From NCBI RefSeq assembly GCF_005952805.1, contig NZ_CP040709.1:3162001-3226000 (forward strand): a stretch of 64,000 nucleotides of DNA, in the 5' to 3' direction. The position numbers and the translations under genes are program-made. Shown here one piece after another: positions 3,023 to 30,221 of the stretch (its first letter is position 1; every line of letters starts with the position of its first letter). The stretch is from Inhella inkyongensis. Lineage in GTDB: Bacteria; Pseudomonadota; Gammaproteobacteria; Burkholderiales; Burkholderiaceae_C. The notes beneath the pieces are model-generated. The model was not told the DNA's origin, did not search any database, and saw nothing but the letters and a program-made list of their open reading frames with translations.

Positions 3023-3023
3023 C

Positions 3024-3086
3024 CCCCCCGAAGCGGCTGCGCCGCCTCCCCCCAGGGGGCGCCGCCAGTGGCCTGGCGAAGCCAGT
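3024..3086. repeat. Hairpin-rich dispersed-type repeat between the cdsA-like gene and ruvC
   Basis: Three adjacent small inverted repeats lie here: GCGGC-TGC-GCCGC at 3033-3045, a CCCCC/GGGGG hairpin around 3047-3059, and CTGGC-GAA-GCCAG at 3073-3085. Burkholderiales genomes commonly carry such short intergenic C-tract palindromes (general knowledge). The word GCGGCTGCGCCGCC recurs in the spacer before the functional ruvC start, and CCGAAGCGG recurs in the spacer before murC. Confidence 0.6.
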
Positions 3087-3149
3087 TCCACGGCGGCCGC
3101 TTGATCTTTCTTTGACTGCAGCCTGTTGTGCTGCAAATCAGTCGGGCTT

Positions 3150-3302
3150 ATGAGAATTCTGGGCATCGATCCGGGTCTGCAAACGACGGGCTTTGCCGGC
3201 GCGCTCTGCGCGCATGGGCGGCTGCGCCGCCATGCCAACCCGTCAAGCCCTTTTGGCGGCACTCACCTGCGGAGCCCGGCGACATGCGCATCCTCGGAAT
3301 AG
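3150..3302 (+). pseudogene. Vestigial second ruvC start (50-codon micro-ORF)
   Basis: ATG 3150 opens a frame whose first 15 residues, [15 protein letters not shown], are identical to the start of the intact ruvC 134 bases downstream. The two DNA copies differ at 10 of 45 bases, and all ten changes are synonymous. After codon 15 the similarity stops and the frame continues through unrelated spacer to TAG at 3300-3302, overlapping the first codons of the real gene out of frame. It could be a remnant of a replaced ruvC allele or a translated leader. Confidence 0.75.
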
Positions 3303-3844
3303 ACCCCGGCCTGCAAACCACGGGCTTTGGGGTCATTGAGGCCGACGGCCCGCGCCTGGGCTATGTGGCCAGCGGCACCATTCGCACCACGGGTGCGGCG
3401 GCCGGGGTGGCCACGGGGGATCTGCCTGGGCGCATCAAGATCCTGTTCGAGGGCGTGCGCGAGGTGGTGCAAACCTACAGCCCCGACTGCGCGGCGCTGG
3501 AGATCGTGTTCGTCAATGTGAATCCGCAGTCCACGCTGCTGCTGGGCCAGGCCCGCGGCGCGGCCCTGGCCGCACTCACCACCTCGGGCCTCACCGTCAA
3601 CGAATACACCGCACTACAGATGAAGAAAGCCGTGGTCGGTCATGGTCACGCGAAGAAGGAACAAATCCAGGCCATGGTGCAGCGCCTCCTGAATCTGCCG
3701 GGGCTGCCGGGCAAGGATGCCGCCGATGCCCTGGGGCTGGCCATCATGCACGCACACGCGCAGACCAGCTTTGCCGCCATGAGTGCCAAGGGCAGTCTGG
3801 CACGCCGCCAACACGCCCAGTTCAAGGGCACGAGAACCTATTGA
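3284..3844 (+). CDS. ruvC: Crossover junction endodeoxyribonuclease RuvC
   Basis: RuvC cuts Holliday junctions during recombinational repair, normally working with RuvAB. The 186-residue length is typical. Visible landmarks are [11 protein letters not shown] (catalytic Asp7), [13 protein letters not shown] (catalytic Glu), the [12 protein letters not shown] helix and the C-terminal [15 protein letters not shown] with the last acidic residues. I chose ATG 3284, preceded by GGAG, because it is where family similarity begins; the frame is open further upstream but that part is spacer. ruvA and ruvB are not adjacent; an ABC exporter follows. A diverged copy of its first 15 codons lies upstream at 3150. 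Confidence 0.95.
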
Positions 3845-26064: not shown

Positions 26065-27152
26065 CAGCGGTTCTCCTTGGCCACCAGGGCCTCAATCTGA
26101 TCGGCCACGCGCTGTGCCGCGCCGGCCCGGTGTTGAGCGCGGGCGGCCTGCGCCAGTTGCAGGCAGCGCTCGCGCGTGAGTTCACGCAGCAGTTGGGCCA
26201 CGCGCTCGGGCGTGGCCTCGGCCTGCGGCAGGTGGATGGCGGCCTGCAAGCCGGCCAAGTGCTCGGCGTTGTCGCGCTGGTGCGCGGTGGTGCTCACCAC
26301 CAGGGGCACCAGCACCGCCGCCACGCCGGCGGCGCACAACTCGCTGACCGTGATGGCGCCGGCACGGCAAATCACCAGATCGGCGGCGGCCAGTTCGCCC
26401 GCCATGTCATCGATGAAGGGGCGTACGTCCACCTTAATGCCGCGCTCGTCGTAGTCGGCCTGCACCTCGGCCAGGTTGGCATTGCCGGTCTGGTGCAAGA
26501 GGTGCGGCCGCTGCGCCGGCTCCAGCAGGGCCAGTGCGGCTGGCAGGGCTTGGTTGAGCGCTCGCGCACCCAGCGAGCCGCCCACCACCAGCACGCGCAA
26601 AGGGCCAGTGCGCCCGGCATAGCGCTGGGCCGGGGGGTCCAGGCATTCGATCGCCGCACGCACCGGGTTGCCCGTGACCAAGCCGTTTTGCAGGCCGCGC
26701 ACCGCGCTGCCGTCAAAGCCAAAGGCAACGCGGTCGGCCAGGGGCAGCAAGGCCTTGTTGGAGAGCAACAGGCCAGCGTCGGCATTCACCAGCACTAGCG
26801 GCTTGTTCAGCCAGGAAGCCATCATCCCGCCAGGGAAGCAGACATAGCCTCCCATGCCCAGCACGGCGTCGGCCTTGCGCCTTTTCAGGATGGCGCGGCA
26901 ATCCCAGAACGCCTTGAGCAGGCGCAGGCCACCCAGCAGGGTCTGCACCATGTTCTTGCCACGCAGGCCGCTGAAGGCGATTCGGTCGAGCTCGATGCCC
27001 GCCTTGGGCACCAGCTGGTTTTCCATGCCGGTCTGGGTGCCCAGCCAGCTGACCGTCCAGCCCCGAGCCTTGATCTCGGCCGCAAGTGCCAGCCCCGGGA
27101 TGATGTGGCCGCCGGTGCCGGCGGCCATGATGACGAGATGCTTACGGCTCAT
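26064..27152 (-). CDS. murG: UDP-GlcNAc:lipid I N-acetylglucosaminyltransferase MurG
   Basis: MurG converts lipid I to lipid II on the cytoplasmic face of the membrane. The 362-residue GT-B enzyme shows [43 protein letters not shown] and the nucleotide-sugar site [23 protein letters not shown]. Ile replaces the more common Val or Thr in GGHI(I)PG, a conservative change. Its start overlaps a 33-residue micro-ORF stop and its own stop overlaps the vestigial murC start. Confidence 0.97.
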
Positions 27153-27250
27153 GCGCGGCCTCCGCGCATGAGTTGCCTGTTCTGGCTGGCGCCGAAACCG
27201 CTCGCCGTCCGGGCCACACCCGTCCGCACCTTGCTGCGCAAGCTGCTCAT
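27149..27250 (-). other. 33-aa micro-ORF between ftsW and murG, with duplicated junction
   Basis: ATG 27250 overlaps the ftsW stop and the frame ends at TGA overlapping the murG ATG, so both ends are coupled by ATGA. Its last ten residues, [10 protein letters not shown], repeat the ftsW C-terminus. The 35-base junction sequence occurs twice with a 98-base period, and the only differences are two bases that keep Arg (CGC/AGG). The middle is unrelated spacer. It looks like the tail of a second ftsW allele joined to murG. Confidence 0.68.
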
Positions 27251-28485
27251 GCGCGGCCTCCGCGCATGAGTTGGCGGTTTTCCAGATCCACTCTCAACAC
27301 CACCGCCAAGGCAATCAGGTTCATCAGTACCGCCGAGCCGCCAAACGACAGCAAGGGCAAGGTCAGCCCCTTGGTCGGCAAGGCGCCCAGGTTCACCCCG
27401 ATGTTGATGAAGGCCTGACCGCCCATCCAGATGCCCACGCCCTGGGCATAGAGGCCGGCGAACACGCGGTCCAGCGCGATGGCCTGGCGGCCGATCTGCA
27501 CCACACGGCGTGTCAGCCAGAAGAAGGCAAAGATCACCAGGGCCACGCCAACCAGACCGAGTTCCTCGCCGATCACGGCCAACAGAAAGTCGGTATGCGC
27601 CTCGGGCAAGTAGTGCAGCTTTTCCAGCGAGCCGCCCACACCCTGACCGAACCACTCACCGCGGCCGAAGGCGATCAGGCTATGGGTCAGCTGATAGGCC
27701 TTGCCGGCGGCGTACTTCTCGTCCCAGGGGTTCAGGTAGGCAAAGATGCGTTCGCGGCGGAACTCGCTGAAGCTGATCATCAGCACGAAGGCGCCGATCA
27801 ACACCAGCAGCACCAGGCTGAACATGCGGCCGTTCACGCCGCCCAGGAACAGCACGCCAATGGCGATGGCGGCGATCACCATGAAGGCACCCATATCGGG
27901 CTCGGCCAGCAAGAGCACACCCAGCAGGCCCACCGTGGCCAGCATGGGCCAGACGGCCTTCCAGAAGTTCTCGCGCAGGTCCATCTTGCGCACCATGTAG
28001 CTGGCGCCGTACATGGCAATCGCGATCTTGGCGAACTCCGAGGGCTGGAAGTCCATCAGTCCCAGCGGAATCCAGCGCCGCGCGCCATTCACCACCTTGC
28101 CGATGCCGGGGATCAGCACCAGGATCAAGAGCACGATGGCGCCCATCGCCATCCAGGGTGCGGCACGTTCCCACACGCGCAAAGGGATCTGGGTGCACAG
28201 CAGAGCGCAGACCAAGCCCACGCCAATGGCGCGCAGATGCCGCACCAGGAAGTGGGTGGACTCGTAGCGCGCAAACTTGGGGCTGTCCGGCAGCGCGATG
28301 CTGGCCGAATAGACCATCACCAAACCCAGGCACAAGAGACAGATCACCACCCAGACCAAGAGCAGATCGAAGCCATGCGCACGCGACACCTGGGTGCTGT
28401 GGATGGGCACGCCATCGCGCACCGGCAGGGTCAGGCCCTCGCCACCGGCGCCACGCAGCTTGGTCCACAGGCCAGCGAAGTTCAC
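27247..28485 (-). CDS. ftsW: Septal peptidoglycan glycosyltransferase FtsW
   Basis: FtsW is the SEDS-family glycan polymerase of the septum, acting with FtsI. The 412-residue protein has about ten membrane segments. The SEDS motifs include [12 protein letters not shown] near the first helix, GARRWIPLG around the catalytic loop, [11 protein letters not shown], and the C-terminal [20 protein letters not shown]. About 45 extra residues precede the first helix. Its last ten codons recur 98 bases downstream, just before murG. Confidence 0.96.
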
Positions 28486-30221
28486 AGTGCCAGCCCTCCC
28501 CGCTCGGCCACCAACTCTTGCGCGGCGGCCACAAAGACCTCGGCACGGTGGGCGTAGTTGCGGAACATGTCCAGCGAGGCACAGGCCGGGCTGAGCAGCA
28601 CGGTGTCACCGCCCTGGGCCTGGGCGTAGGACCAACGCGTGGCCTCCTCCAGGCTGGCAAAGCGCCCAACGCTCAGAGAACCGCCCTGCAACAGGGCCGC
28701 CAGTTCCTCGGCATCCTTGCCGATGAGGGCGACGCTGCGCGCATGGCGCAGGATGGGTTCGCGTAAGGGGCTGAAGTCTTGGCCTTTGCCGTCGCCACCC
28801 AAAACCAGGCAGAGCTTGGCGCCTTCCCTGTCAGCGCCCAGGCCCGCAATGGCCGCGACGGTCGCGCCCACATTGGTGCCCTTGCTGTCGTCCACAAAGT
28901 CCACGCCGTCCAGAGTCAGCACCCACTCCACACGGTGCGGCTCGCCCTGGTAATCGCGCAGCGCATGCAGCATGGGGGCGAGCGGACAGCCAATCTCGGT
29001 GGCCAGGGCCAAGGCGGCCAGCGCATTGGCGCTGTTGTGGCGCCCCCGGATGCGCAAGGCGTCGGCCGGCATCAGGCGCTGGATCTGCAGCTCCTCCTCG
29101 GCCTGGGCCGCGCCGCGCTTCTTGCGCAGGCTGGGCGTTTCATCCAAGGGCAGCGCGCGCACCAACCAGGCCACGCCGGCTTCCTCGATCAGCCCGAAAT
29201 CACCGGGCGCCTGCGGGGCATTCAAGCCAAAGCGGCAGACACTGCGCGGCGTCCACTTCACGCTCACCTTCAGCGGCTTGCCGCGCGCGCCCACCGGCGG
29301 CGGCGGGGCGGTGGGCACCAGGCCCTCCACCAAGGCGTCATCGCGGTTGATGACCATCAGCGCCTGGCTGCCATAGATGCGACCCTTGGCCGCGGCATAG
29401 GCCTGCATGTCGCCATGCCAGTCCAGATGGTCCTGCGTGATGTTGAGCACCACCGCTGCGCTGGGCTCGAAGTCCCGCACCCCGTCGAGCTGGAAGCTGG
29501 AGAGCTCCAGCACCCAGACCTGGGGCAGGTGCTCGTACTCCGGCGCGCGCGGCGGCGGGGGCTGGATGGGCAGCTCGGCCTGCTCCAACAGCTCATCCAA
29601 CTGCTCCATCGACACCCCGTCGTCTTCGGCCGGGGCGTCGGGCTGCTCTTCGGGCATGACCAGATCCAGCTGCTGTGCCTGCTCAGCGACCTTGGCGTGC
29701 CCTTGCGTGCGCAGGGCCTGGCTCAGGGTGTCCAGCAGGGTCGGGCCGATATTGCCAGCAACCGCCACGCGCAGGCCGGCGGCCGCGCAGAGCTGGCCCG
29801 TCAGCGAGGTGGTGGTGGTCTTGCCATTGGTGCCGGTGATGGCCAGCACATGGGGCGCGTATTGCCACTCGCTCTTCAGCGCAGCCAGGGCTTGGGCAAA
29901 CAGATCGAGTTCACCCTGCAGCGCCACCCCGCGTTCGCGCGCGGCCGCCAGCAGCGGCGCGATGCGCACATCAAGCGGCGCCAGGCCAGGGCTCTTGAGC
30001 ACCCGGCTCACGCCGTCTAGGGCCGTCAGCTGCAATTCACCCTGCAGCCGCTCGGCCTTGGGTACAAAGGTGCGCAGGGCGGCGTCCTGCGGTGCGTGGT
30101 CGCGCGAGTCCCAGACCTGGACGCGTGCCGCGCCCTGCCAATGGGCCCAGGCAGCCATGGCCAGGCCGGAGTCGCCCAGACCCAGCACCAGCACCGATTC
30201 GTCGCGCAGCAGATTGAGCAT
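28482..30221 (-). CDS. murD: UDP-MurNAc-L-alanine--D-glutamate ligase MurD, with large insertion
   Basis: MurD adds D-Glu to UDP-MurNAc-L-Ala. Core motifs are intact: [50 protein letters not shown] and [15 protein letters not shown]. The protein is 579 residues, well over the usual 440-500. The excess is mainly an acidic, Pro-rich insertion at about residues 168-233, between the ATP loop and the ELSSFQL motif. A second, Pro/Lys-rich expansion sits ahead of the RIRGRHN segment. ATG 30221 is three bases after the mraY stop. The 3' end overlaps ftsW by four bases. Confidence 0.94.

Follow-up and report, generated by a model that had tools for sequence, protein, structure and literature searches.

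The start of ruvC is present twice

The window, by which we denote the whole stretch of 64,000 nucleotides of Inhella inkyongensis DNA analyzed here, belongs to a genome assembled as a single contig of 4.08 Mb. On its forward strand lies an intact ruvC gene encoding 186 residues (3284..3844), as seen in the list of open reading frames and substantiated by family search (TIGR00228, 155.9 bits versus a cut-off of 100.65). Codons 1-15 of this gene occur a second time upstream on the same strand: copy 1 (3150..3195, the 15 codons plus one base) precedes copy 2 (3284..3329), which is continuous with the gene body, at a start-to-start spacing of 134 bp. The pair is the first-listed and longest of three close direct repeats in the window, at a minimum length of 28 and a distance of at most 220. 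Identity amounts to 78% across 46 nt; within the 45 nt of the codons, 10 base differences affect nine codons and not a single amino acid, and when 10 random changes in the ruvC start were simulated 200,000 times, the peptide never remained intact. An initial sequence-only reading had described two diverged starts, 134 bases apart and with 10 of 45 bases different, that encode the same residues, and had taken both to be the starts of working ruvC genes. Repeat and codon comparison bear out the description, and the exclusively silent differences, together with the simulations, support its interpretation. Its further proposal, that a foreign ruvC or its 5' part was placed beside the resident gene and the resident body was lost, appears to hold as regards a diverged 5' part but is not supported as regards the lost body, as the RuvC of the window is nearest to that of other Inhella (86-89%; at most 81% outside the genus). 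The structured element between the copies, and its presence at other genes, are additional to that reading.

Copy 1 heads a frame of 50 codons (3150-3302) with an ATG at 3150, which the list of open reading frames starts at an earlier TTG. Ahead of copy 2, the putative replacement start, a leader (3251..3283, forward strand) with a possible ribosome site GGAG (3271-3274) can be read from the sequence; by eye, such a site is absent in the ruvC leaders of several relatives. The intergenic stretch that separates copy 1 from the preceding gene (3023-3149) is GC-rich and palindromic.

The doubled start recurs in related genomes

A comparison with the ruvC loci of relatives, as the sequence-only reading had suggested, establishes that the layout recurs. 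In 18 loci compared, from Inhella and five other genera, a displaced start lies 134-145 bp upstream and is directly followed, at codons 14-15, by a structured insert, which in relatives is the element that we term E. An assembly artefact at the doubled start is very unlikely, since other genomes have the identical layout. Among 111 ruvC locus rows, a second start was found upstream in 10, corresponding to 8 distinct loci, the window included. The five other genomes of the window's genus comprise one with the layout (G003) and four in which it is absent (L003, L005-L007). In the genus of G018, referred to as g14, a search of 18 genomes with a degenerate pattern yielded 10 with displaced start and insert, 6 with a single start and 2 without a ruvC match.

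Summed over the 18 loci, and with ATG/GTG/TTG start variants scored as silent, the copies show 112 base differences, with 82 silent and 11 non-silent codons; the latter are confined to G326 (4), G339 (2), G341 (1), G022 (2) and G234 (2). Codons 2-4 differ in 14, 10 and 10 loci, codons 12 and 13 in 8 each and codon 15 in 1, a profile without a simple gradient. Up to 11 nt separate the copy-1 sequences of seven g14 genomes, all without effect on the encoded residues; this silent-only change and the near-constant gap could also be read as signs of an old insertion whose copy 1 is under constraint.

Which of the two copies is the resident one? At codon 2, copy 2 has CGY in all 10 g14 loci and copy 1 has AGA in 8, with CGT in G339 and G341. 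A start of the copy-1 type (ATG AGA ATT CTY) is found in four of the six single-start g14 genomes (G329, G331, G332, G337), whose upstream sequence, by eye, resembles that before copy 1 in congeners carrying E. G175, likewise a single-start g14 genome, has a CGT start, and in G336 the single start stands behind a leader and an apparent remnant of E; its displaced start may have been lost. The last codons are common to both copies in several loci (TTA in G333, as in the single start of G337, and TGC in G003), a mosaic that would fit recombination within the repeat. In Inhella the sequence is indecisive, the E-less starts of four genomes (CGC ATC CTS) resembling copy 2 more than copy 1, and position favors copy 1 as the resident, since it overlaps the stop codon of the upstream gene in G003.

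A folded element between the copies

In relatives, E is a three-way junction of about 70 nt with strong covariation. Eight sequences, six of them at ruvC and two elsewhere, went into its covariance model; they show 88.8% paired cells versus 77.9% when shuffled. In the alignment of 82 matches (63 distinct), paired cells make up 97.7%, compared with 82.2% after shuffling, and 14 of 17 pairs display two-sided changes, compared with 7.7; neither value was reached in any of 500 shuffles. This alignment was fitted to the model, and versions in which it is slid drop to 24-45% paired. By eye, the core reads, in order, GTTKTGGC, TTCGGCC, a hairpin, CTTCAC, a hairpin, GAGCC and GCCGMAAC, with the first hairpin missing in some copies. 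The covariance model detected E in 120 of the 299 family genomes searched (E-value at most 0.001), and in 2 of 274 genomes of a class-wide draw (E-value at most 0.0001), both from the same family. Removal of repeat fetches of one place reduces the 82 matches to 69, and removal of identical ones to 67, in 59 loci that represent mostly the best match per genome plus some multi-copy genomes and are not a random sample.

A search of five E loci (L057, L008, L157, L147, L002) against Rfam 15 gave no match on E itself; one sub-threshold match, 22.1 versus 111 bits, lay outside it. Among plasmids, a 206-base query of ruvC and E was without a match, and among open-licence papers we found no description of the element. 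On viral contigs, 77 stretches fit a loose pattern, and the model gave 12 matches in 8 of the 77; this shows carriage of E, not a mover. As a side observation, E lies within phage gene clusters on the viral contigs L325 (3100-3260), L336 and L372, and at 3125 of L325 a gene start encoding MAYF was seen by eye both before and after E.

The insert of the window, taken with its closing stem (3188..3250, forward strand), was delineated by a predicted fold of the single-stranded DNA and by matches to our own covariance models R1 and R2, whose E-values are rough. The left arm (3188-3199) takes in the GGGCTTT of copy 1; in the prediction, it is followed by hairpins at 3201-3211 and 3212-3235 and by the right arm at 3239-3250 (CCCGTCAAGCCC). 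Both here and in the congener, two hairpins are thus predicted within a closing stem that includes target bases, with folds that are not strong compared with shuffles (z -0.96 and -2.01). R1 matches 3189-3253 with 12.9 bits (E-value 5e-4 in 301 b, 0.1 in 64 kb) and R2 matches 3189-3252 with 9.1 bits (E-value 0.01 in 301 b), the default R2 scan returning the insert only as a partial match of 8.4 bits. The displaced gene end abuts the insert's left edge, and the restored gene end lies to its right. By sequence, the insert matches E weakly, and the architecture agrees; because of the same position, the two-hairpin layout, the closing stem with target bases and the sharing of the insert with G003 (85% over 66 nt), we treat it as a probable diverged member of E or a sister type. 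In a search of five genomes, convincing inserts of the window's type were confined to the ruvC loci of two Inhella genomes; the other places returned looked coding-like by eye, except for another tandem hairpin repeat in L048.

In the Inhella inkyongensis genome, R1 has five matches. By eye, four of these lie beside lepA, between groEL- and groES-like genes, within an array that includes argF-like end fragments, and inside an RND-type gene, for which family search of the given stretch gave no match; the fifth lies where an alanyl-tRNA editing gene ends, as judged from a fragment match below the family cut-off.

Gene ends are duplicated at other loci of the element

Direct repeats abut E in 25 of the 59 loci and, at the criterion used, are absent in the other 34. 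In a first control, left and right flanks of different loci were paired randomly (median 9.4, 95% 19, maximum 69), values that arise because loci of one gene pair up; shifted and shuffled flanks were used as final controls, with repeats in 0 of 44 and 0 of 670 cases, respectively. Named gene ends account for 21 of the 25, so that the same arrangement recurs at several genes: the 5' end of ruvC (8, of which 4 are sequences used to build the model of E) and the 3' ends of argF (8), acyl-CoA dehydrogenase (3), recA (1) and cysH (1). The names are based on fragments that mostly fall below the full-length cut-offs of the families. The remaining repeat loci are L200, at a gene given no name, and the tandem copies of E at L240, L243 and L244. 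A metK end at L183, with 9 silent and 2 non-silent codons, stays under the repeat criterion.

The displaced 3' ends sit past the stop codon of the intact gene. For argF, their codons show 58 silent versus 14 non-silent differences over 13 loci, a sum that omits G175 (identical units), single-unit loci and G340 (end not located). For acyl-CoA dehydrogenase (23 codons with the stop), silent to non-silent counts are 13:0, 6:0 and 7:1, with differing stop codon types scored as silent and the 24th codon, past the stop, omitted, which lowers the non-silent count by one per pair. Rows in the wrong frame, such as L174, L177, L196, L237 and L239, are left out of the codon tallies. As these ends past stop codons differ mainly silently and some older ones have decayed, the silent differences argue for a replacement end of diverged origin rather than for translation of an orphan.

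Tandem argF C-terminal ends separated by E were seen at L239, L241, L242, L386 (G175) and L384 (G337). In several argF arrays the end on the gene is intact and the outer ends are altered, as in unit 3 of G337 (3 non-silent) and in G328 (5), or broken, as in G334 and G329; in G175, L239 and L242 the units are nearly identical and without decay. The first codons of the gene-attached end specify N-R-M or N-R-L. A reverse complement of this end occurs 73-91 nt downstream, before E; at the best of about 75 offsets, 19 of 23 argF loci match at 8-10 of 10 bases, and G018, G338, G330 and G175 reach 5-6 of 10. In 13 of the 14 argF loci with at least two units, the gene-attached end and the first displaced end differ in their first two codons, G175 being the exception; these differences are not always silent.

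A second case in the window

The second-listed close repeat of the window (span 27147-27279) duplicates the end of ftsW over 35 nt with 94% identity. According to repeat search, reading and family search, the end attached to the gene (AAC CGC CAA ... GCA TGA) occupies 27247..27279 of the reverse strand, and the displaced end (AAC AGG CAA ...) occupies 27149..27181 of the same strand, so that its arginine codon is AGG versus the CGC of the gene; murG begins within this displaced copy. An apparent remnant of E, with both hairpins gone and arms recognized by eye (GTTCTGGC and GCGCCGAAACCGC), is found at 27178..27203 of the forward strand. It is the best match of the R2 scan (14.0 bits, E-value 0.056 in 67,546 bases) and is matched by R1 with 11.1 bits (E-value 0.38); the best R1 match in the window, with 16.6 bits, covers 27136-27199 on the other strand and overlaps the remnant. 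The third close direct repeat of the window, at 29891-30048, measures 32 nt with 75% identity and a spacing of 126.

Discussion

What could have produced a second start that differs from the first in nothing but silent positions? The answer to which we give a probability of roughly 0.7 is a small mobile element, structured and non-coding, that inserted into ruvC, displaced the old start and supplied a replacement start for the same 15 residues; similar elements appear to act likewise on the ends of several further genes of the family. This explanation builds on the 18 ruvC loci, the covariation of E, the abutting repeats, the silent excess past stop codons and the altered outer ends of argF, and further on the copy-1-type starts of g14, the reverse complement at argF and the second case at ftsW. 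Counted against it are the weak E-model scores of the window's ruvC insert and the confinement of its sequence type to ruvC in two Inhella genomes, the E-less Inhella starts that resemble copy 2 and the CGT start of G175, as are the CGT-type copy 1 of G339 and G341, the silent-only copy 1 of g14, the near-constant gap, the ungraded codon profile, the E loci without a repeat and the undecayed arrays.

In the proposed mechanism, the element would enter directly after the GGCTTT of ruvC codons 14-15, as a unit of 134 bp consisting of the folded core, the leader and the replacement ruvC start. More generally, a unit would comprise a core, an arm complementary to the target, a leader or trailer, and a new gene end that finishes in the target sequence. 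Upon insertion directly beside the target, the gene would regain an end and the old one would be displaced; ruvC would thus work on from its new start, and the displaced fragment upstream would be what is left of the old one. The silent differences would then reflect that the two starts evolved in separate functional ruvC genes before being joined, and the codons shared toward the junction in some loci are such as recombination within the repeat would give. The unit was presumably acquired by horizontal transfer and may have been recombined by a putative enzyme acting on its folded core, in an integron-like or IS200/IS605-like manner. The site would be recognized through the arm complementary to it, which could pair with target bases on either side. 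Transfer of the unit between species could also proceed by homologous exchange around it.

The competing explanation that survives best, although we regard it as unlikely, is a local duplication in which the host's own start was copied as a long target duplication, copy 2 having drifted silently and copy 1 being too young for decay. It draws on the mere 3, 2 and 5 nt that separate the copies in G022, G106 and G234, and on the lineage-specific codons shared near the junction in G003, G333 and the single-start G337. However, an orphan that had been free for as long as the 10 differences of the window imply should show several amino-acid changes, none of the simulated sets of 10 changes being silent throughout, and the near-complete split between AGA and CGY at codon 2 in g14 likewise speaks against it. 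Decidedly improbable is that copy 1 is a translated leader with selected amino acids, as the sequence-only reading had offered as its second option, or the true N-terminus, joined to the gene by a ribosome bypassing the insert. The location of copy 1 at the native start, where in G003 it overlaps the stop codon of the preceding gene, and its silent-only changes among the seven g14 genomes would suit such a role, but copy 1 has changed its amino acids in G326, G339, G341, G022 and G234, and bypassing is unneeded given that copy 2 is itself a conserved, usable start. As a main reading we rejected leader and bypass because in argF and acyl-CoA dehydrogenase the 3' ends displaced past the stop codons have the same silent excess. 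Least probable of all is ordinary homologous recombination with a foreign ruvC sequence in which a repeat was present by chance, without element-driven insertion: while the mosaic copy 2 of G333, with first codons of the other type and last codons of the native type, looks as if derived from short homology, and the unit could pass through a genus by allelic exchange, the same core accompanies gene-end repeats at the unrelated argF, recA, cysH and acyl-CoA dehydrogenase genes and, by eye, at ftsW and a phage gene, which ties the core itself to the event.

Beyond the preferred reading of an element that replaces gene ends, it is conceivable, if rather doubtful, that E represents a new class of miniature mobile DNA: non-coding cassettes that fold as single strands and are moved by a recombinase acting in trans, whose complementary arm recognizes conserved gene ends, and which, once inserted, give the gene back an end that is recoded synonymously and unlike the displaced target. 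Repeated rounds would leave integron-like arrays of fossil gene ends, as in argF, a readable record of successive replacements. If true, elements too small for coding can enter conserved genes such as ruvC, recA and ftsW without destroying them, by bringing a matching gene end. Silent-only duplicates of gene ends would provide a way of detecting such insertions and account for odd doubled gene ends in annotations, arrays of old ends would make the turnover of gene ends measurable, and the complementary arm would offer a testable hypothesis for target choice.

Gene-restoring integration is a feature of the icd prophages 21 and e14, with mostly silent differences at the regenerated end. Integrative islands in tRNA and tmRNA genes likewise split and restore their target gene, according to the part of the Islander work considered here (PMC4383910). 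E is like such islands and prophages in the regenerated gene end on one side, the displaced fragment on the other and the mostly silent differences; unlike them, its unit is about 130-160 bp long, is without a coding gene or integrase, and occurs at several unrelated protein genes, at both 5' and 3' ends. No recombinase gene was found in the 134-bp ruvC unit, which has small frames only. In being short, non-coding, hairpin-forming and dispersed, with inverted terminal arms, E is comparable to MITEs and REP/ERIC-type repeats. However, MITEs have short identical target-site duplications, whereas the flanking duplications at E are long gene ends that have often diverged, as in the window with 46 nt at 78%.

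Integron attC sites are folded sites with RYYYAAC...GTTRRRY boxes. With integron cassette arrays, E has in common folded sites between units and, in argF, an intact end on the gene with the others outward, but its units are copies of one gene end, and an integrase was not found. The attC box pattern was not seen in E by eye, its ends GTTKTGGC...GCCGMAAC standing in the opposite order. The ends of IS200/IS605 use guide pairing, which the pairing between arm and target proposed for E recalls, as it does folded attC sites.

Rickettsia palindromic elements belong to a different bacterial class. They are palindromic repeats of about 150 bp located in frame inside protein genes, as far as the portion of Ogata et al. 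(PMC10969869) drawn on here describes them. E resembles them where it lies, by eye, in frame within RND-type transporters, for example at L195 and L202; unlike the elements as described in that portion of PMC10969869, it accompanies gene-end replacement. RND-type transporter genes contain E at L195, L202, L234, L236, L189 and L209, next to an inverted target copy; the cases read by eye appear to be in frame. At L194, L201, L205, L206 and L208, again by eye, a terminator-like T-run immediately precedes E, and a lepA-like gene follows downstream.
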